Assembly (NCBI GenBank): GCA_019429385.1 | Contig: JAHYIS010000028.1 | Location: 1 to 35,894, forward strand | Direction of reading: 5' to 3' | DNA from: ANME-2 cluster archaeon | GTDB lineage: Archaea > Halobacteriota > Methanosarcinia > Methanosarcinales > Methanocomedenaceae | Length of the DNA stretch: 35,894 bases | Shown here: one piece after another, positions 5,536-27,281 of the stretch | How positions within the stretch are numbered: position 1 is the stretch's first letter | Layout: each line of letters begins with the position of its first letter | Made by a program: the position numbers and the translations under genes | The notes under the pieces: generated by a model | The model's database searches: none | What the model saw: only the letters and a program-made list of their open reading frames with translations | Told to the model about the DNA's origin: nothing

Positions 5536-6317
5536 TAGACTTACTTCACAGCAAAAAAGAAAGCACCAAATTTCAAATCCTTGTGGAGATCGCGGCACAC
5601 CAGCCCAATGTTCGACAAAAAGAGATTGCAGATAAAGTAGGTATAACTCCCCAGGCAGTTTCTGAATATATCAAGGAACTTACCGATGAAGGTCTGATAT
5701 TTTCCGATGGCAGGGTACGTTATAAAGTTACCAAGAATGGGATTGAATGGGTGCTTGAACGAACGGCTGAGTTGAAGCGGTATTCCAAATACGTAATGGA
5801 AGATATCATAAGCCATGTTTCTGTTTGGACAGCCATTGCAGATGATGATAATAAGTCAGGCCAGAAAGTATCGATTTTGATGCGTGAAGGATTATTGTAT
5901 GCCACAACGTACCGGGAAGGTTCTGCGAGCGGTGTCCTGACCTCGGATGTCAGGGCAGGCGAGGATGTAGGAGTGACTGACCTGCATGGTATGATAGAAC
6001 TGGATGATGTGAAAATAACAGTATGCAAAGTGCCCAGGGTGGAGCGAGGCGGTTCCAGGAATGTCAATCTTGAGATGTTACGTGAACTCACCGTGGATGC
6101 AAAGTATTTATGCGTGCTGGGTGTGGAATCATTGATCGCATTGCGCAGTATCGGCAGGGAACCCAATATCATGTTCGGGACCAGGGAATCGGTGGTGGAG
6201 GCAGCTTTTCATGGTTTATCTTCAGTTGTGGTATCTGTAGATGAAGAAGTACCACCACTATTGAACAGGCTTGAATCCGAAGGTCTGTCGTATGACCTTC
6301 ATGACCTTCGTAAATGA
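5532..6317 (+). CDS. MarR-like winged-helix regulator with C-terminal ligand-type domain (COG1497 type)
   Basis: A 261-residue protein. Residues 10-75 form a winged helix: LVEIAAHQPNVRQKEIADKV, the recognition helix TPQAVSEYIKELTDEGLI, and a wing SDGRVRYKVTKNG. The remaining 180 residues form a separate alpha/beta domain (KVSILMREGLLYATTYR, GEDVGVTDLHGMIELDDVKI) that probably binds a ligand or mediates assembly. This layout is conserved in archaea and annotated as a predicted transcriptional regulator; the target genes are unknown. It starts inside the stop of the preceding regulator and ends 12 bases before the helicase gene, so all three are likely one operon. Confidence 0.65.
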   Translation: MIDLLHSKKESTKFQILVEIAAHQPNVRQKEIADKVGITPQAVSEYIKELTDEGLIFSDGRVRYKVTKNGIEWVLERTAELKRYSKYVMEDIISHVSVWTAIADDDNKSGQKVSILMREGLLYATTYREGSASGVLTSDVRAGEDVGVTDLHGMIELDDVKITVCKVPRVERGGSRNVNLEMLRELTVDAKYLCVLGVESLIALRSIGREPNIMFGTRESVVEAAFHGLSSVVVSVDEEVPPLLNRLESEGLSYDLHDLRK

Positions 6318-14736: not shown

Positions 14737-15453
14737 TCACACAAATAGTTCAGGCACGATCCTGCGCGCAACTTCCCTGTAAGCCGCAGCCAGGTCACCT
14801 TTATCGAACCTGAACACATCCTTGTCCAGCGAATTCCCGGTCTCCTTATCCCACAGCCGGCAGGTATCACAGGATATCTCATCACCCAGCACAATCTCAC
14901 TACCCCTGCGCCCGAACTCAACCTTGAAATCCGGCAGGATCAATCCCCGCTCATCCAGGTATGACCTCAGGATATCATTAATTTTAAGCGCGGTTTCCCG
15001 TATCTGTGCAAGTTCTTCCCTGGTTGCAAGCCCCAGCGCCACGGCAATATCCTCGTTGAGCATGGGGTCATGGCGCGAATCGTCCTTATAGTCCATCACG
15101 ATCACAGGTTCATCCAGTACCTGGCTCTCCTCAAAAGGATACTTGCGGGTCATAGAACCAGCAGCAATATTGCGGACGATCACCTCTACCAGGATAATCT
15201 GAACGGTATCCACAAGCATCTCGTGGTCGGACACCATCTCCCGGTAATGGGTCTTGATACCATTCTCTTCCAGAAGTTCGAATACCTTTTTGGATATCTG
15301 GGCATTATAATACCCTTTCTTCGGCACTTCAGCTTTCTTTTCCCCGTCAAACGCTGTAAGGCTGTCCCTGAAATCCATTATCAACAGATTCGGGTCTTCG
15401 GTGCGGTAAATAGTCTTTGCCTTTCCTGAATACAACTCGTCTGTCTTCTTCAC
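14737..15453 (-). CDS. purC: Phosphoribosylaminoimidazole-succinocarboxamide (SAICAR) synthase
   Basis: A 238-residue enzyme that joins aspartate to CAIR using ATP in purine synthesis. Visible motifs are [16 protein letters not shown] (ATP-binding strand), [68 protein letters not shown] and [15 protein letters not shown]. The length is normal for the family. GAGGTTGAT just upstream of the ATG at 15453 supports the start. About 50 bases separate it from the ligase gene upstream, with an AT-rich stretch near 15496-15504, so it may have its own promoter. Another purine gene, purA, lies about 13 kb away. Confidence 0.96.
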
Positions 15454-15504
15454 ATAATCAACCTCGCGGGAGAAAATAATTGATGTGCATGAAACATTAT
15501 AATA

Positions 15505-16404
15505 CTACCCATCAACTTCCCTCATCACATACCTGACAATATCAGCGGTCACGTCAATACCGCATGCTTCAAATATACCCCTGCCCGATGGCGTACCGTT
15601 CACCTCAAGGATACTCAACCCTTCCTCCCCTTCTATAAGGTCCACCCCGGCATACACCGCACCTACAGCCCTTACAGCTCTGCATGCCAGCTCTTTTATC
15701 TCAGGTGACATTGGGCAATGTTCGGGTGCTCCACCCTGTGATAAATTGTTTATCCATGAACCGGGAGGAGCATTTCGGTATATAGCTCCTGATACCTGTC
15801 CGTCCACCACAAATACCCTGATATCCCGTCCCGGATTCGGTATATACTGCTGCAGGTATAATACCCCCCTGCGCTCCAGGTGCTTCATGAGTCGTGTTTT
15901 TGAACTATCATCGTCCACCACGCATTGAATATCCAGGCCCTTAAAACCAAATATAGGTTTTATCACAGCCTTCCCCCAATCCCTGACTACATTGACCGCT
16001 GTATCAAGGTCAGAAGTGAGAATAGTATCGGGAGTGGATAGGCCCTGTTGCTTGAACAGGTACGATGACAGGTATTTATTGGCCGCCCCCTGAATAGCCA
16101 TGGGCGGATTTACAATCGTTATCCCCTGTTCATCCAGATTGCACAGTACATCGAACCGGTAGGACATCCCTTCAGTATCAGTGCCACCACTACTACCACC
16201 CCCGCCTACATCGCGCACAATGACCGCATCCAGCGACCCGAGGTTCATATCCCCTGCCACCAGTTCCGTCTCCCCCAGCATCCGGGTGGTAACATCATGC
16301 AACCTGAACACAAAAGGTGACCCACCTGCTCTGCCCACTGCTTCATATAATGCACGGGCTGTCCAGTCCTGAGGGTCGGTAACAGCTATGCCGATACGTC
16401 TCAC
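15505..16404 (-). CDS. mptN: RimK-family ATP-grasp ligase, probable tetrahydromethanopterin:L-glutamate ligase
   Basis: A 299-residue ATP-grasp enzyme. ATP-grasp elements are KYLSSYLFKQQGLSTPDT, AVIKPIFGFKGLDIQCV (phosphate-binding loop), YLQQYIPNPGRDIRVFVVDG and the metal-binding end SILEVNGTPSGRGIFEACG. The RimK/MptN/CofF group adds glutamate to cofactors or proteins. In methanogens MptN makes tetrahydrosarcinapterin and CofF extends F420, so these are the best guesses and I cannot separate them by eye. An unusual Gly/Ser loop (DVGGGGSSGGTDTEG) sits in the N-terminal domain. The gene overlaps the upstream DUF434 gene by 4 bases. Confidence 0.75.
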   Translation of the reverse strand: MRRIGIAVTDPQDWTARALYEAVGRAGGSPFVFRLHDVTTRMLGETELVAGDMNLGSLDAVIVRDVGGGGSSGGTDTEGMSYRFDVLCNLDEQGITIVNPPMAIQGAANKYLSSYLFKQQGLSTPDTILTSDLDTAVNVVRDWGKAVIKPIFGFKGLDIQCVVDDDSSKTRLMKHLERRGVLYLQQYIPNPGRDIRVFVVDGQVSGAIYRNAPPGSWINNLSQGGAPEHCPMSPEIKELACRAVRAVGAVYAGVDLIEGEEGLSILEVNGTPSGRGIFEACGIDVTADIVRYVMREVDG

Positions 16405-17093
16405 GACAGCAATCCCCCTATCATGACCGGGCTTCTATTCAATTCTTCCAGCACCCTGGCCTGGATATTCACCACGGTATTTACTGCATCAATAATAGTA
16501 CCGTCCGAAGTGGCCACTATCTTCCTGCAATGCTTGAGGTCATGATCAACGTGCCTGGAAGTCCTGGCATGGCCATTAATACCGAATGTTCCTATCCTTT
16601 CACCTACCCATTTCGCCAGGTCCCCGCTCCTGCTGATCTGGCTGTCAAAGAGGAACTCCACCCTGCCCGATTCACAATGTGACAGCTGTCCGAGTATGGA
16701 ATCCAATGCCTTTACTGTCTCATCAGAGCACCGGTAATTCCTGAACACGCCCCTGGTATCCCTGATAAACCCATCATCACAAAGGTAAACCGGTTCACCT
16801 TTGAGTGCGGATTCCACACCGATAAGTACATTATACCCGTCCACCCAAATTTCTTCACCAGCCAATTCCCTCCATTCAATGGTCTTACTTTTCCGTGCCC
16901 TGGCTACGCTATCAGTGTAGATGACCCTGCCGAACACATGACGGATAGTGATATCCAGTCGGTAATGATTACACACATACGTAATTGCACTGGCCCGTGG
17001 ATACCCCCTTTCCAGCAGGAATCTGATATCATATACAGCCCTGTCCTCACCAGGAATATGAGCCCCAGTCATTCCCTCCACATGCATGGTCAA
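16401..17093 (-). CDS. DUF434/DUF5616 (COG2454-type) protein with PIN/NYN-like nuclease features
   Basis: A 230-residue protein. The N-terminal DUF434-like part holds VYDIRFLLERGYPRASAITYVCNHYRL. The C-terminal part has WVDGYNVLIGVESAL, VEFLFDSQISRSG and KIVATSDGTIIDAVNTVV. Three aspartates at the ends of hydrophobic strands (VDGYN, LFDSQ, ATSDG), the last followed by another Asp, resemble the acidic active site of NYN/PIN-fold RNases. The family is conserved in archaea and its function is undescribed as far as I know. It overlaps pelota upstream and the RimK-like gene downstream by 4 bases each, so the three are tightly coupled. A link to ribosome rescue is inference. Confidence 0.7.
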   Translation of the reverse strand: MTMHVEGMTGAHIPGEDRAVYDIRFLLERGYPRASAITYVCNHYRLDITIRHVFGRVIYTDSVARARKSKTIEWRELAGEEIWVDGYNVLIGVESALKGEPVYLCDDGFIRDTRGVFRNYRCSDETVKALDSILGQLSHCESGRVEFLFDSQISRSGDLAKWVGERIGTFGINGHARTSRHVDHDLKHCRKIVATSDGTIIDAVNTVVNIQARVLEELNRSPVMIGGLLS

Positions 17094-18139
17094 TACTCCA
17101 TTTTGAACCGTAATAGTGCAGCAATTCCGCCCAGACCGTGCAGCCTGTGACCGGGTTCGAATTCGGTACTGAACACCACCACTTTGCCCCGGCTTTGTTC
17201 AATGCTCAGGATGAATGCATCAATATTTTCCCCTTTCTCCCGTCCCTCCCTGAGCAGTTCATCAGTGATAAGCAGCGTACCCACTGCACCCATATCCCTG
17301 GCCCGGCTCACTGCATCCCACCCGTAAGCTACGGCCCCGTCGGTTGCGATGCGCTCCATCAACTCTTCCAGGAGCATTGCTTCCCTGGCAATCCTTGACT
17401 CTTCCACTATCCTGTCAACAGCACCCCGCCGAAGCACTTCCTGGTAACCGGAAACGCCGATGGTTATGGTATCTTCGGTCCGGGCCCTGGCTGCCAGTTC
17501 GGGTTTGTTTGTTTTCAGGGTTTTGAGGAAATCGTCTTTCGTAAATCCTGGCCCGGCCACGATAACGGCTTCACTCCCGCCTGCAGCCTGTTCAAGCTGG
17601 GCAATGACCTGGGCAAAAAAATCTTCCCTGTGGCTGGATTCGCCTTTACCTGACCCGGTTTTGACATGTGAATAATCCTCAACCCCGAACTGCCTAAGAA
17701 GTCCGATGGACGCCTCCCCCTCTTCAATGGTCAGGATGACCACCCGGGGACGTTTTGCTGCAGCTTCAGCTTCCTTTATTCGCTCAAGCTGGTCGCTCTT
17801 CCAGGTTTTTGTTACCGAAAGATTCGTACCTTCTTCAATATTCAGGGTGTGATAGGCACTTACATCCTGCCCGCTCTCGATCACGCCATGCAGGCGCAAC
17901 CGGTTTGAGAATTTGTGGAACTCGATGTTTTCTATGCGCACCCCCAGACGCATGGGTTTTTTCTCCATCTTTTCAGGTCTGAGCTTATCGGTAGCTCCCT
18001 CCACCTTACGTTTGGTAAGCGCGAAAACCAGATCGCCTGGCTCAACAATATATTTCAGGTGCCACAGGTCGTCAAGGGACTCCGGTGTAAGAGCGATCTC
18101 GCCGTCCCTGCCTTTGAGGTTCCTTTTGGTTACTTTCAT
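17090..18139 (-). CDS. pelA: mRNA surveillance protein pelota
   Basis: A 349-residue homologue of eRF1 that rescues stalled ribosomes, working with aEF1A and ABCE1. Domain 1 (about 1-130) is the Sm-like N-terminal domain (WHLKYIVEPGDLVFALTKRKVEG, MRLGVRIENIEFHKFSNRLRLHG). Domain 2 (about 130-260) has VVILTIEEGEASIGLLRQFG and AVIVAGPGFTKDDFLKTL and lacks the GGQ motif, as expected for pelota. Domain 3 (about 260-349) has AVAYGWDAVSRARDMGAVGTLLITDELL and ends GLGGIAALLRFKMEY. It heads a three-gene overlapping operon. An AT-rich stretch upstream (18165-18180) may hold its promoter; no Shine-Dalgarno site is visible. Confidence 0.96.
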   Translation of the reverse strand: MKVTKRNLKGRDGEIALTPESLDDLWHLKYIVEPGDLVFALTKRKVEGATDKLRPEKMEKKPMRLGVRIENIEFHKFSNRLRLHGVIESGQDVSAYHTLNIEEGTNLSVTKTWKSDQLERIKEAEAAAKRPRVVILTIEEGEASIGLLRQFGVEDYSHVKTGSGKGESSHREDFFAQVIAQLEQAAGGSEAVIVAGPGFTKDDFLKTLKTNKPELAARARTEDTITIGVSGYQEVLRRGAVDRIVEESRIAREAMLLEELMERIATDGAVAYGWDAVSRARDMGAVGTLLITDELLREGREKGENIDAFILSIEQSRGKVVVFSTEFEPGHRLHGLGGIAALLRFKMEY

Positions 18140-18291
18140 CTAAAACCTATAGTGTACTGGTAGGTTATGTTATTTGCTGTTGGATTTTTCAAATATGGGG
18201 GGAAAGATACGAGCTGCAAGCCCTTACAGTAAATAGCACTGAAGGTTTATTTGCAGCGGTTTAAAGCTCAGGTCCAGTTGCAGAGATATAG

Positions 18292-19236
18292 TTACGGTAG
18301 TTTACTTATTGTGACATCCACGCAGGTTTTCAGGATCTCCTGTACATCCCCGCCTTCCACATCCAGCCCGGCAGCCCCGTCATGTCCGCCACCTGTGCCG
18401 CAGAACTGTTTACTGACCTCATCCAGTATCTGGCCAAGGTTTACCCCTGCATCAATGGCATTACGCCTTGCCCTGCCGCTAATTCTGACAATACCATCTT
18501 TGTCGGCACCCACAAAGGAAACATCTGCCCCTACATGTGTCAATATACCGGCTGCTGTTCCTCCAAATGAACTAATGGTACTGGTAACGATAAGCCAGTC
18601 ACCTTTGCGATGTACCTGTGCCCTCAGTGCTGCTTTAAGTAAGGCTATCCTCATGCTGATATCCTGGGGGGTTGATGCCAGCAGGTCTACCACTTCGCCA
18701 TATTCCACACCACTGGCCTCGATAATTTCTGCAAGCGTCCTGAACGAATCAGGATTTGCGTATTTGAAATTACCCGTGTCGGTAATGATGCCGGCTATGA
18801 GCGCAATGGCAGATTTCCTCATCACAGGAGCTTCCATGAACGTGAGAATATCAAAAACGATCTCTGCAGTCGAACTGGCGGTACGGTGTATGTAGAACTC
18901 GGCATCATCCTTAATAGCACAGGTGGAATGGTGGTCGATAACTGCATATTCTTTCAGTACGATTCCATTCAACTGGGCCAGCGTACTGGTATCCACAACC
19001 ACAGTCAGGTCATAGTCTGAAGTATCGGGCATTTCAATAACTTCAATATCCAGTGTCTTGATTAACGTAGCAGCTACCCGGTTGCAACCATCGACTATTC
19101 CAACAGTGCCACCCAGAGATTGAGCTAAGGTATAGGCACTGCCAATCGCATCGGGGTCAGCGTTGCGGTGGCACAGAAATAATATATTATTATAATCCAG
19201 GAGCCGATTATAAAAACCGGACTCATCTACTTCCAT
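18292..19236 (-). CDS. DHH/DHHA1 family phosphoesterase
   Basis: A 314-residue phosphoesterase, related to NrnA/RecJ-like enzymes. Metal-binding motifs are CHRNADPDAIGS (His23, Asp27, Asp29), VVDTS (Asp82), VIDHHST (Asp101-His103) and a later GIITDTGNF. The DHHA1 substrate-binding domain ends with FCGTGGGHDGAAGLDV. Likely substrates are short oligonucleotides or linear dinucleotides; I cannot decide between nanoRNase, single-stranded nuclease and pAp phosphatase activity. It is the last gene of the exosome/proteasome superoperon, 26 bases after prefoldin beta. The 152 bases after it hold the pelA upstream region and no gene. Confidence 0.88.
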   Translation of the reverse strand: MEVDESGFYNRLLDYNNILFLCHRNADPDAIGSAYTLAQSLGGTVGIVDGCNRVAATLIKTLDIEVIEMPDTSDYDLTVVVDTSTLAQLNGIVLKEYAVIDHHSTCAIKDDAEFYIHRTASSTAEIVFDILTFMEAPVMRKSAIALIAGIITDTGNFKYANPDSFRTLAEIIEASGVEYGEVVDLLASTPQDISMRIALLKAALRAQVHRKGDWLIVTSTISSFGGTAAGILTHVGADVSFVGADKDGIVRISGRARRNAIDAGVNLGQILDEVSKQFCGTGGGHDGAAGLDVEGGDVQEILKTCVDVTISKLP

Positions 19237-19262
19237 GGCTCGTATGCCCTCGATGCAGGCAC

Positions 19263-19625
19263 TTATTCAGCATTCATTGCTGGAGAGCCAACAGAAGTCT
19301 TCAACTGGTCCTGTAATTGGGTGAATCTCTTGTGGATTCGTTCTTCCTGCCGGTTTATGGTCTGAAGTCTGAGACCTAAAGTCACTTTCTTTTCCTTCAG
19401 TTCTTCCGTTGTTTTAACCATATCTGTTTTTATCATCAGGTTGCCCACATTTTTATAGACCGGCACATCATTTCCAAGCTTTTCAAGCTCTTCAAGTGCC
19501 ATCTCAGATTCTTTCAACATGATCTCAAGCTGGTTTTTCTGTTGTGCCAGAACCTGCGCTTGTTGTTGAACCTGCTGTATTTGTGCAATCTGGTTTTGGA
19601 CCTGGGGTGGTAATTCTCCGCTCAT
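19263..19625 (-). CDS. pfdB: Prefoldin subunit beta
   Basis: A 120-residue subunit of the jellyfish-shaped hexameric prefoldin that delivers nascent chains to the thermosome. The N-terminal helix is LPPQVQNQIAQIQQVQQQAQ and a second strand KQNQLEIMLKESEMALEEL follows. The central hairpin is VPVYKNVGNLMIKTDMVKTTEELKEK, the classic prefoldin beta sequence. The C-terminal coiled-coil helix is RLQTINRQEERIHKRFTQLQ. Length and layout are normal. It sits between Pcc1 and the DHH gene, its usual place in euryarchaeal superoperons. The thermosome is encoded about 10 kb away on the other strand. Confidence 0.95.
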   Translation of the reverse strand: MSGELPPQVQNQIAQIQQVQQQAQVLAQQKNQLEIMLKESEMALEELEKLGNDVPVYKNVGNLMIKTDMVKTTEELKEKKVTLGLRLQTINRQEERIHKRFTQLQDQLKTSVGSPAMNAE

Positions 19626-19678
19626 CGTAATTCACGCTCAGTTGTATAATTTGATTTCAACATGGCACAATACTACTT

Positions 19679-19918
19679 CTATTTTTCTATTGCCATGCTC
19701 ATATCATCTGCTATCTTTACCAGCCGTAGCCATCCATTCAGTGCCGCTCTCATTGAGACCAGGTCGTGGGAGCGTATCTTGAGAATCAGTTCACTTCCCT
19801 GTATGGCAAGCTGTGAACTGGTACGCTGATGGGAAGCATCCAGTTCAGGTAAAAGTGACTGATAGATAACATCGATAAACCCGGGCATTTCAAAAATAAA
19901 TTCAGATTCGACTTCCAC
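19679..19918 (-). CDS. pcc1: KEOPS complex subunit Pcc1
   Basis: A 79-residue protein starting at GTG, chosen because GAGGGAG lies 6 bases upstream and the family-like VESEFIFEMPG begins there. Pcc1 is the dimerization subunit of KEOPS, which makes the universal t6A modification on ANN-decoding tRNAs. The body shows VIYQSLLPELDASHQRTSSQLAIQ in the first half and the signature SMRAALNGWLRLVKIADDM in the last helix. Pcc1 is commonly found beside prefoldin beta and RpoP in this superoperon. A 118-base spacer, long for this operon, separates it from rpoP and contains a small ORF with a strong purine-rich site. Confidence 0.85.
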   Translation of the reverse strand: MEVESEFIFEMPGFIDVIYQSLLPELDASHQRTSSQLAIQGSELILKIRSHDLVSMRAALNGWLRLVKIADDMSMAIEK

Positions 19919-20000
19919 AACAAACTCCCTCGGGCAAAGTCGAACCAGAATATGACTGCCTGAAGATGAAGGTATTGGAGGAGATATAGTATCCCCTCAT
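19902..20000 (-). CDS. Possible 32-codon upstream ORF in the rpoP-pcc1 spacer
   Basis: On the minus strand an ATG at 20000 opens 32 codons and ends in TGA at 19902-19904, overlapping the first 17 bases of pcc1 in another frame. It is preceded by a triple AAGG repeat (complement of about 20001-20017) that could act as a Shine-Dalgarno site. The peptide starts MRGYYISSNTF and has two adjacent cysteines near its end. No family is recognised. It could be a translational coupler or leader peptide for pcc1, or chance. Confidence 0.25.
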   Translation of the reverse strand: MRGYYISSNTFIFRQSYSGSTLPEGVCCGSRI

Positions 20001-20036
20001 TCCTTTCCTTTCCTTTCGTATTAGGTAAGGCCTGAC

Positions 20037-20174
20037 CTAAACCGCTTCTACCTTCTTGATAAGGGTAGGTCTCTCTTTTATCAGAATCCTGTGCCCGCAG
20101 TATTGGCACCGGATACCCATTACTTCGTAGTCTATCTCCACCGAATGCTTACACCTTGTACATATATATCCCAT
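20037..20174 (-). CDS. rpoP: DNA-directed RNA polymerase subunit P (Rpb12/RpoP)
   Basis: A 45-residue zinc-ribbon subunit of archaeal RNA polymerase. It begins [14 protein letters not shown] and continues with [14 protein letters not shown], giving the pattern CxxC...CxxC, and ends [12 protein letters not shown] with a TAG stop. GGTGAGG lies just upstream of the ATG at 20174, an excellent Shine-Dalgarno site. The subunit sits near the Rpo3/Rpo10/Rpo11 platform of the enzyme. It lies between rpl37ae (72 bases upstream) and pcc1, its conserved archaeal position. Confidence 0.93.
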
Positions 20175-20247
20175 TTGACCTCACCTCGGGATTGGTCTGG
20201 AAAGCAGTTTCATCTTAAGTAGTATCCTTTTCAAGACGAACCGTATC

Positions 20248-20607
20248 TCAATTGGCATTAAAGCCTTGGTTTGTTTGTTCCAGTTCCATTTCACCGGATT
20301 CTGGTTCCAGGTCCTCGAACATGATACCAGTCTCCATAGCCTTCTTAACGGACCGGGTTACTGCAAGACCCATGGACGTATTTGGCACATATGTACCTCC
20401 AGTGAACGTATGGTCGCACTTCTTGCAGTTCCAAATGCCAGTATCAGTGCGGCGTATTGTCATCAAACCACACTTTGGACACTTGTAATCCTGTCTCATG
20501 CGCTCTTCGATATTTGCTACCAGTTTACGGACCTTTCTACCGTAACGGACACCAAACCTGCCTGCTGAACGTGTTTTATGACCTTTTCGCGTGTATTTCT
20601 TTGCCAT
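20248..20607 (-). CDS. rpl37ae: 50S ribosomal protein L37Ae
   Basis: A 119-residue ribosomal protein. The basic N-terminus is AKKYTRKGHKTRSAGRFGVRYG, followed by the C4 zinc finger KCPKCGLMTIRRTDTGIWNCKKCDHTF split as CPKC and CKKC, then GGTYVPNTSMG. It binds large-subunit rRNA. The protein is longer than the usual 90 or so residues: after AVTRSVKKAMETG it carries an acidic tail (EDLEPESGEMELEQ) ending FNAN. It starts 3 bases after the rrp42 stop, as expected in a tight operon. Confidence 0.95.
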   Translation of the reverse strand: MAKKYTRKGHKTRSAGRFGVRYGRKVRKLVANIEERMRQDYKCPKCGLMTIRRTDTGIWNCKKCDHTFTGGTYVPNTSMGLAVTRSVKKAMETGIMFEDLEPESGEMELEQTNQGFNAN

Positions 20608-20610
20608 GAC

Positions 20611-21390
20611 CTAAATCTCCAGGAATTTTTCTCTAATCTCCTGCGCTTTTCTGCAGGATACATCTACGATATAATTTATCTGATCAACGGTAAGCGAACC
20701 ATTTCCGCTTTTCTGCATGCCTGCGATGGCACCTTCCTGATTGGAAATGACGGTCAGCTTGCAATCTGCAACCCGTTCCTCTTCCATGGACGGATCGAAC
20801 ACGATCCCGCCACCAATATCCACTGCTGTCACTGACACCGGTATATCTCTCATGGGTAAAGGCATATCTTCGCCAATACCATAGCGCTCACCAGGTATCG
20901 TGGCTGTGAGAAGTGCTGCAATCGCACCCAGTGAAGCTGCATCATTGAGATTTCCACCGTCATCCAGTACATGGACGTCAATGAAGACCATCCAGACTTG
21001 CTCTCCCTCCTTAATGCACAGCTTCTTTAAATCGATTGCGCCTGATTCACGGACACCCCTGTCAGTCACCCTGGCAAGTTCAATGGCATTCTCCCTGGGA
21101 GGACCGGATTCGAATTCAGGGGATGCTAAAGGTATCAGCTCCAGACTGGTGATGATAACACCCACATCAGGAGTGTCGGGGAACGGTGTACCGGGCTGAA
21201 TCTTCACACCGGCAATTATCTTGGTATCGCCGATCTCCACCCGGGCAGACCCTTCAGCCTTATCGATGATACCCGTCTCAATGAAAATGTTCCTTGTCTC
21301 TTCAGGTTTACGACCGTCAAGTCGCTCGCCTTTCAACATCAAACGAATTAATTGATCTTTCTGTACTATTGAAACGATCTGTTTATTCAT
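20611..21390 (-). CDS. rrp42: Exosome complex subunit Rrp42
   Basis: A 259-residue RNase PH-fold protein and the non-catalytic partner of Rrp41 in the hexameric archaeal exosome ring, which degrades or tails RNA. It begins [19 protein letters not shown], with [18 protein letters not shown]. Also visible are [59 protein letters not shown] and the final [15 protein letters not shown] place the start at 21390: GGAGG lies 9 bases upstream, and the ATG overlaps the rrp41 stop region by 8 bases. An upstream in-frame Met 11 codons earlier, inside rrp41, is less likely. Confidence 0.95.
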
Positions 21391-22321
21391 AGGAATCATC
21401 CTCCAGTATGTCAAGTTCCTCAAGTGATTCCTCAGCTTCTTCGGAGATGTCTTCCTCTACATCCATTTTATCAATATCACTATCCTCGGCAACCATATCA
21501 TCCAAATTTTCAGGTGCAGTATTAACATCTTCTGATGGAACATTTTCGTTGGTCTTTACGACCTCTTCCACAGACGGTGCTTCAGTTTCTTTTTCGATAG
21601 TGCCTTGCATTTTCGCAAAATGATCCCGCAGTGCCTGTCTCTGTTTTTCATACACTTGCCGGCAACCTTCCTGCGCCATTTTAAGACCGGTCTTCAGCTC
21701 TTCAGGCGTAAGGTGACCATCCATTTGTAACAGGGTTATCTTTCCATCCGGTGTCATTGCAATAGGTACATCAGCCTGTCCGTAATTGTCCTCATCTTTG
21801 TTCAGGTCCACTACAAGAGTATTATCCACTTTTCCAAATGCACATGCACTGACCAGACCCCGCATGGGGATACCTGCATCGGCAAGGGCGACAGATGCTG
21901 CGTTAAGAGCAGCTGTCCTGGTCCCTGCATCTGCCTGCAACACTTCAACAAAAATATCGATTGCGGATTTCGGGAAATATTCGGTGAAAACCTGGTCCTC
22001 AAGTGCTTCCCGGCTGACCTTTGATATTTCAGTGCTCCGACGGTCAGGTCCGGGTCGCTTTCGGTCCTCTACCGAGAACGAAGCCATATTGTACTTATAT
22101 CTCACAATGGCCCTGGTCGATTCCTGTTGATGTCTGGGATGTACTTCCCTGGGCCCATAAACTGCTGCAATTACCTTGTTCTTACCGAATTCAAGATAAC
22201 ATGAACCATCAGCTCTCGCCAGTACACCGACTTCAATCTTAATGTCGCGTATCTGGTCAAATTTTCTACCGTCAAGACGTAAACCATTTTCGTCTATGAA
22301 CTTTTCTGGTTTGTCGCTCAT
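21383..22321 (-). CDS. rrp41: Exosome complex catalytic subunit Rrp41 with long acidic tail
   Basis: A 312-residue phosphorolytic 3'-5' RNase of the archaeal exosome. RNase PH motifs are [44 protein letters not shown] (93-100, phosphate and RNA binding), [16 protein letters not shown] and [15 protein letters not shown], in which Asp184 corresponds to the known catalytic Asp. Homologues usually end near 240-260 residues. This one adds about 75 residues from [15 protein letters not shown] onward, rich in Glu and Asp and ending [10 protein letters not shown], probably disordered. It follows rrp4 by 34 bases and overlaps rrp42. Confidence 0.96.
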
Positions 22322-22355
22322 TTCATTATTCCTCTTTTGTATAAATATAACTCAT

Positions 22356-23063
22356 TCAGTCCAGGAGTTGATTCAAAATATCCGGACTTTCTGGCTCTTC
22401 TTTCTGCTCTTTGACTTTCCCTTTCAACAGCCTGCCAATACGTTCTGTAAGTCCTTGATTATGGGCTTCCTTTTCAATGACATGTATGGCTTCCACTACC
22501 CTGGCTATTTCTTTGTCTTTACCTGTTATCCAGACAACTCCATTCTGCCCAACAAAGATATTACAGTTCGTTTCCTTTTTCAACATGGAGATCATGGAAC
22601 CCCCCCTTCCGATCACTCTTGGCACTTTAACAGGTGATATCTCCATAAGTATTCCGTTATTGATAATCATAGATCTGTTATTGCGCATGGTCAGGTCCAC
22701 GAACATTGAAGGGGTAAGGTCATTTACCATTACCATTACTGAATCCCCGACAGTCAGATATTTGCTCATTTCACTGGAATCAATTCGTTTTGGATATTCT
22801 GATGAATTAAGCCACCCTTCATAGGGGGACCTGATATCAAGTACCCAGTTTGAGAACGTGACCGATTTGACTGTACCTATAATCATATCATTTTTTGATG
22901 GGACATATATTCCCGACAACGGAACTACACGGACCTTATCTTTTTCACTGGCAACTCCATACAATTTCGCATATATTTTCCCGTCTCGTACATAGGTCCC
23001 GTCACCTGCTTTCTTAACATCATTTGATAAAAAATCGCCCGGGACTACTATTTTTTTATTCAT
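22356..23063 (-). CDS. rrp4: Exosome RNA-binding cap subunit Rrp4
   Basis: A 235-residue cap protein that sits on the Rrp41-Rrp42 ring and guides RNA into its pore. The N-terminal domain has KKIVVPGDFLSNDVKKAGDGTY. The S1 domain has DMIIGTVKSVTFSNWVLDIRSPYEGWL, then VGDSVMVMVNDL. The KH domain is SPVKVPRVIGRGGSMISMLKKE with GQNGVVWITG. The C-terminus is basic then acidic (GKVKEQKEEPESPDILNQLLD). The start at 23063 matches the family. It lies between SBDS and rrp41, the conserved order. Confidence 0.95.
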   Translation of the reverse strand: MNKKIVVPGDFLSNDVKKAGDGTYVRDGKIYAKLYGVASEKDKVRVVPLSGIYVPSKNDMIIGTVKSVTFSNWVLDIRSPYEGWLNSSEYPKRIDSSEMSKYLTVGDSVMVMVNDLTPSMFVDLTMRNNRSMIINNGILMEISPVKVPRVIGRGGSMISMLKKETNCNIFVGQNGVVWITGKDKEIARVVEAIHVIEKEAHNQGLTERIGRLLKGKVKEQKEEPESPDILNQLLD

Positions 23064-27002: not shown

Positions 27003-27281
27003 GTTTCGTAATCTCCAAATAGTGTGTCCATGTTTCACGGTTCAGCCCACGGGGGCCACATCCCTGCGGGACGTATCCCGCCAATGAAACCGGCATGTTT
27101 TGTGGGGCTTATAGATACGTTAATGGGTAATAAAGGTTGGGGAAGCCATATCTTTATAAAAAATTCCGGCACTAATCCTAAAGCATATTTAGAATACTGT
27201 CCCGAAATTCAAGATATTCACACGATGTTAAAGAGAACTACAATTATTTGCATGGGCATTGATTGCGCAGATAACCTTTAT
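27003..27281 (-). promoter_or_regulatory. Promoter and structured leader upstream of the L15e superoperon
   Basis: A TATA-like box, TTTTTTATAAAG on the minus strand, lies around 27151-27162, about 150 bases from the L15e start. The intervening leader includes a perfect 6-bp hairpin GCGGGA/TCCCGC with loop CGTA (27066-27081), flanked by complementary AGCCCAC and GTGGGGCT segments about 60 bases apart. A long structured leader before a ribosomal protein gene invites regulation, but this is unproven. The rest of the gap to 27281 is featureless. Confidence 0.4.

Follow-up and report, generated by a model that had tools for sequence, protein, structure and literature searches.

The window, i.e., the whole 35,894-nucleotide stretch of DNA analyzed here from an ANME-2 cluster archaeon, carries pelA, a DUF434-DUF5616 gene and a gene for a RimK-type ATP-grasp ligase side by side on the minus strand. 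The list of open reading frames bears out this order and the shared strand. The product of pelA (17090..18139) is pelota, which matched TIGR00111 at 322.9 bits and contains the eRF1_1, eRF1_3 and eRF1_2 domains. Pelota acts in mRNA surveillance and ribosome rescue. Downstream of pelA follow the DUF434-DUF5616 gene (16401..17087), hereafter the DUF gene, whose product is a predicted PIN-like nuclease as judged from the reading frame, PF04256 and PF18481 matches, start comparison and predicted structure, then the ligase gene (15505..16404), and next purC, encoding SAICAR synthetase (14737..15453; PF01259). Upstream of pelA, and likewise on the minus strand, lie a DHH/DHHA1 phosphoesterase gene found by domain scan (18292..19236) and a stretch with genes for a prefoldin subunit, L37ae and exosome-type proteins (19263..23063), assigned by domain scan, gene order and conservation. 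The sole exosome-type stretch that was scanned (20611-21423) contains RNase PH domains, and from gene order we take the exosome-type genes to be Rrp42, Rrp41 and Rrp4. In ANME-2 relatives, the exosome-type cluster, the DHH gene, pelA, the DUF gene, an MptN-like gene and purC form a single long run, corresponding to 14737-23063 of the window. Proximity of exosome genes to pelA was rejected as a general trait, as no exosome-side gene was found in the stretch of about 16 kb surrounding pelA in 20 other genomes. Elsewhere in the window, an eL15-Euryarchaeota ribosomal protein leader was found at 27034-27080 (49.7 bits), and a scan for bacterial-type promoters and terminators gave results at chance level, as expected for an archaeon. 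A profile search found one DUF5616 gene in the whole genome of the window, and the closest kin of its protein are those of ANME-2 cluster archaea (loci L034-L039; 72-80% identity).

The junctions on the two sides of the DUF gene differ in how well the initial annotation described them. An overlap of 4 bases with pelA needs a TTG start at 17093, whereas the relatives point to an ATG at 17087. The pelA stop reads TACTGA in L040-L044, which abolishes the TTG start there, and an ATG is located 2 nt past the pelA stop in 11 of 12 genomes (the window and L034-L044), with L039 having TTG at this position. Because the TTG is missing in L040-L044 and the ATG is kept in 11 of the 12, we assign the start to the ATG at 17087, and the geometry of pelA and the DUF gene is likely a 2-nt gap. 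A genuine ATGA overlap of the two genes occurs in the more distant L074. On the other side, the 4-base overlap of the DUF gene with the ligase gene is real (GTGA, 16401-16404), and all 11 near relatives (L034-L044), as well as L078 and L089, retain it in the form of GTGA or ATGA.

At E ≤ 1, Pfam detects DUF434 and DUF5616 alone in the DUF protein, and it names the family and assigns no function. With residues counted from the TTG codon (17093), the DUF434 domain comprises residues 18-70 (16884..17042, minus strand; PF04256) and is helical and basic by conservation and structure. R56 of this domain is invariant, and R51, R67 and K70 are conserved for the most part, as judged by count for R67 and K70. 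Compared alone, it gave homeodomain-like or HTH-like structural matches, which are weak (Z ≤ 4.6). The DUF5616 domain (residues 76-212; 16458..16868, minus strand; PF18481) is an alpha/beta core with a PIN-like predicted structure. The motifs VDGYN, LFDSQ and ATSDG noted by the initial annotation are present, and the alignment of 146 distinct homologues bears out the conservation of their Asp residues: Asp85 of VDGYN, at the end of the first core strand (16839..16841), is found in 146/146 homologues, Asp150 of LFDSQ (16644..16646) in 145/146, with one Glu, and Asp197 of ATSDG (16503..16505) in 146/146. Two further residues, Asp112 of the DDGFIRD hairpin (16758..16760) and Asp183 (16545..16547), had been missed and are each conserved in 146/146; all five codons lie on the minus strand. 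The presumed active site would thus comprise five near-invariant Asp, which exceeds the minimum of three conserved acidic residues by which the PIN-like superfamily is recognized.

The AlphaFold2 model of the DUF protein, made with 45 homologues as input, has a mean pLDDT of 90.9 and a pTM of 0.86. The top Foldseek match was FEN1 (E = 3.2e-3); none was found at E ≤ 0.001, and the list also included proteins that are not nucleases, e.g., PRPP synthetase and eIF2B. After realignment of the top 1000 chains, EXO1, FEN1 and GEN1 filled the first eleven rows with Z of 8.0-9.4, and these matches have an rmsd of 2.8-4.6 Å over 123-131 residues, covering residues 59-220 or so of the model. Rae1/YacP (5mq8) matched with a Z of 6.7, an rmsd of 3.7 Å over 112 residues and 18% identity, and a Z below 8 may reflect a merely common arrangement.

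Similarity to the FEN1/XPG N-terminal nuclease region was also found by hhalign. The core matched archaeal FEN1 (23 sequences) with a probability of 78% (78.3) and a score of 41.2, and the match, about 60 columns long, takes in the first Asp with its surroundings and the hairpin after it. By query version, the FEN1 probability ranged from 46.6 to 78.3%, the lower value belonging to an earlier version. The best score among 12 controls, i.e., 10 unrelated families and two reversed decoys, was 17.7 for the same query and 21.2 (probability 1.5%) across three query versions. Archaeal NYN proteins reached probabilities of 0.6-0.9%, which is inside the control range. For an earlier profile comparison, the candidate frames, some of which lay on the wrong strand, were reduced by the motif filter from 29 to 23 for FEN1 and from 42 to 16 for NYN. 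No Pfam match of NYN or NYN_YacP to the DUF protein was found at E ≤ 1, and a sequence profile search of the PDB returned nothing significant, the best match being FEN1 2izo (E = 0.35).

The PIN-like reading stands because of the predicted fold, the acid pattern and the FEN1 profile similarity taken together. In the model, the core of the DUF protein is PIN-like and has the fold that defines the superfamily. A PIN-like fold was anticipated by the initial annotation, and by profile the protein is nearer to the FEN1 type than to the NYN type. The PIN-like superfamily is the most fitting place for DUF434-DUF5616, as a member that is so far uncharacterised. In the literature collection searched, no paper treating the family was found for DUF434, DUF5616, COG2454, PF18481 and PF04256, and it is possible that a PIN-like classification was made earlier; PMC4431377, which came up for DUF434, concerns DUF4343 instead. 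The protein is likely a nuclease of some kind and, if it is one, its substrate is probably RNA rather than DNA. We read it as probably a metal-dependent nuclease with a PIN-like core that would act on RNA and is not obligately coupled to pelota.

The neighbours of the DUF gene bear on its possible substrate. In the survey, the gene was located by HMM in 140/140 regions, and raw neighbour counts hint at a connection to translation. Several Methanosarcinaceae loci have Pth2 and TruD beyond MptN, and a Trm5-type gene is found at +1 in 11 Halobacteriota and 2 Asgard loci. In Asgard archaea, the ribosomal stalk operon L11-L1-L10-P1 lies closely upstream of the DUF gene, often with AlaS or LeuS near; ribosomal L10 is among the three genes preceding it in 16 of the 20 Asgard regions (L136-L155). 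LeuS is also beside the DUF gene in a third archaeal phylum, overlapping it in L230, and Elp3 overlaps it in L243. Neighbours without a role in translation include fumarase (Methanothrix), TFB (L231), a TPP enzyme (L108), a CobB-like protein (L244), a GNAT acetyltransferase (L246), PAC2-like proteins, MptN and PINA. In L238, L240 and L241, three genomes of another archaeal phylum, the DUF gene shares about 4 bases with the PINA-like gene (PIN, ATPase and KH by the scan of L238), so that two PIN-type proteins are coupled there. On a Treponema plasmid (L033, around position 6000), the homologue is situated amid immunity-type and leucine-rich-repeat genes.

Because Trm5, LeuS, AlaS, Elp3, Pth2, TruD and the stalk operon adjoin the gene in separate lineages, the protein might be a nuclease for maturation or quality control of tRNA or rRNA, unrelated to mRNA decay. 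However, no substrate is indicated, and DUF5616 is patchy in occurrence (56 of 246 genomes of the window's phylum; 22 of 119 and 14 of 23 genomes of two further sampled groups), which would be unexpected of a maturation step that is essential, and we regard this alternative as somewhat unlikely. The sampled regions come from the window's phylum, Asgard archaea, a third archaeal phylum and bacterial plasmids. DUF5616 matches were found in Methanosarcina acetivorans and Sulfolobus acidocaldarius, the DUF gene is also carried by Flammeovirga, Hymenobacter and Treponema, and no DUF relatives were found in viral contigs, phages or PADLOC.

EXO1, FEN1 and GEN1, the closest folds, are DNA nucleases, and this counts against an RNA nuclease. 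With the top structural and profile matches falling on these enzymes, and including the strand, VDGYN and the hairpin region, the DUF protein could be a short FEN1-like enzyme, i.e., a structure-specific DNA nuclease that serves repair or replication. Such an enzyme would nevertheless differ from FEN1 in its architecture: Pfam shows DUF434 and DUF5616 only, no XPG_I or H3TH region was found after the core at E ≤ 1, and there is seemingly no room for an H3TH region as the protein ends 33 residues past Asp197. Additionally, XPG_N (FEN1) is already present in 31 of the 31 genomes searched, and the annotated neighbour clusters contain no recurring gene for repair or replication. A role as DNA nuclease is unlikely in our view.

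The initial annotation suggested that the DUF protein is the nuclease arm of archaeal no-go decay, with pelota sensing the stall and the DUF protein cutting the mRNA. To our knowledge, it is not settled which enzyme cuts mRNA on stalled archaeal ribosomes. According to an older proposal, pelota itself cuts the mRNA (PMC2613156), and in yeast no-go decay a separate A-site endonuclease, Cue2, is described as cutting with an SMR domain (PMC9841427). Besides this precedent, the suggestion is favoured by the PIN-like fold, by the exosome genes just upstream in the same run, and by the conserved adjacency and tight spacing to pelA in ANME-2 and L074. In total, pelA adjoins the DUF gene in 12 of 80 loci (L034-L044 and L074), the 80 having been retained out of 527 relatives from a single genome collection. 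A motif filter used on the loci missed L013, and L022 and L262 belong to one genome. A tree built from 72 of the 146 distinct sequences places all the linked loci in one clade of 14 rows (98/91 support), which also holds L078 and L089, where the two genes are unlinked, and adjacency is kept among DUF proteins about 45-82% identical to that of the window (window, L034-L044 and L074). Judged by gene order, the adjacency is more than chance and conserved, yet only inside one clade.

Genome counts within the window's phylum also weigh against a general partnership. Pelota is above cut-off in 236 of 246 genomes, and with DUF5616 in 56 this leaves at least 180 genomes that have pelota without DUF5616; the control Haloferax volcanii is likewise without it. 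One genome of the same order, G206, has pelota and no DUF5616 match, as against 32 members of the same family (f2) with one. Among the 56 positive genomes, the two genes are side by side in only two (G000 and G236), on the same contig at least 77 kb apart in 20, and on different contigs in 30, where linkage across the break is possible for some. For G110, G171 and G211 the full pelota position was not listed, with no pelA in the 14-15 kb around the DUF gene, and the listing for G027 has no match above the pelota cut-off. Beyond the phylum, no pelA was found near the DUF gene in 20 Asgard regions (from 20 of 22 positive genomes), 13 regions of the third archaeal phylum (from 13 of 14) or three bacterial plasmid loci. 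Homologues also occur in bacteria, where pelota is not expected; TIGR00111 matched 4 of 14 control genomes, all 4 archaeal, and a distant pelota relative, Balon, is reported to exist in bacteria (PMC10901736). The pelA linkage thus does not recur outside the lineage, and for this reason the suggested nuclease arm is not supported as a general function. We consider a dedicated arm of pelota-dependent no-go decay improbable, although the protein may have this role within the ANME-2 clade itself.

The junction with the ligase gene is more widespread than that with pelA, which is a further point against a dedicated pelota partner. The ligase matched the MptN (tetrahydromethanopterin:alpha-L-glutamate ligase) model NF040720 at 331 bits, under the 350-bit cut-off, and since the second-best match in the genome reaches 42.8 bits, we regard it as the best MptN candidate of the genome and not as a ribosomal-protein modifier. 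In ANME-2, GoM-Arc1 and JdFR-19 types, an MptN-like gene overlaps or touches the DUF gene. Although 26 of the 78 loci that could be placed (L097 and L110 left out) have such a gene at +1 and 28 have one within +3, which makes MptN the commonest partner, a pterin-linked role or a mere operon passenger is very improbable, as many archaea and three bacterial records have no MptN beside the DUF gene and a role in pterin metabolism is not obvious for a nuclease-like active site.

We favour, with modest confidence for the reading as a whole, a stand-alone two-domain PIN-like nuclease that is independent of pelota and has RNA as substrate. The independence is indicated by the linkage being confined to one clade, the genomes with pelota only and the bacterial homologues. 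In such an enzyme, the five Asp (85, 112, 150, 183 and 197) would bind Mg2+ or Mn2+ and cut the phosphodiester bond, while the helical DUF434 domain would hold the nucleic acid, presumably RNA. The protein would act as a cellular enzyme whose gene is often, not always, beside translation or tRNA genes, and it could plausibly cut mRNA on the ribosome, as Rae1 does, or process tRNA or rRNA. In ANME-2, where the pelA-DUF-mptN-purC run lies behind the exosome genes, co-expression with pelota is possible. A bolder version, which we consider rather improbable, would make the family an ancient mRNA endonuclease that works at the ribosome in archaea and in some bacteria, equivalent to Rae1 and Cue2 but with a PIN core of the FEN1 type; in ANME-2, the genes for exosome, pelota and nuclease would form a complete no-go decay module. 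With its wide distribution, its credible PIN-like site and several translation genes among its neighbours, this uncharacterised family is a concrete RNA nuclease candidate, which is open to testing in culturable hosts, e.g., Methanosarcina acetivorans and Sulfolobus acidocaldarius.

Among known systems, Cue2/NONU-1, the endonuclease of eukaryotic no-go decay, would be the functional counterpart if the initial annotation were right; the SMR fold of Cue2 is unrelated to the PIN-like fold. The NYN nucleases (PF01936; MARF1, CRISPR NYN and LabA-like proteins) share the PIN-domain-like superfamily with the DUF protein and are described as having three essential Asp (PMC11346440), but differ from it in that profile similarity is at control level. 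Rae1/YacP (PF05991) may resemble the DUF protein in its PIN-like fold, and the YacP family was found in none of 100 genomes searched from the window's phylum. Rae1 is not known to have a DUF434 domain. In Bacillus subtilis, Rae1 is described as a ribosomal A-site endoribonuclease acting on mRNA (PMC6613710). The N-terminal region of FEN1/XPG (PF00752; archaeal FEN1) resembles the DUF protein in the PIN-like core with the first-Asp segment and the hairpin. Unlike FEN1, the DUF protein is without the H3TH or C-terminal DNA-binding part and has an extra basic helical DUF434 domain at its N-terminus, and its hairpin carries the invariant-type DDGFxRD where archaeal FEN1 has G..TSHLSG.
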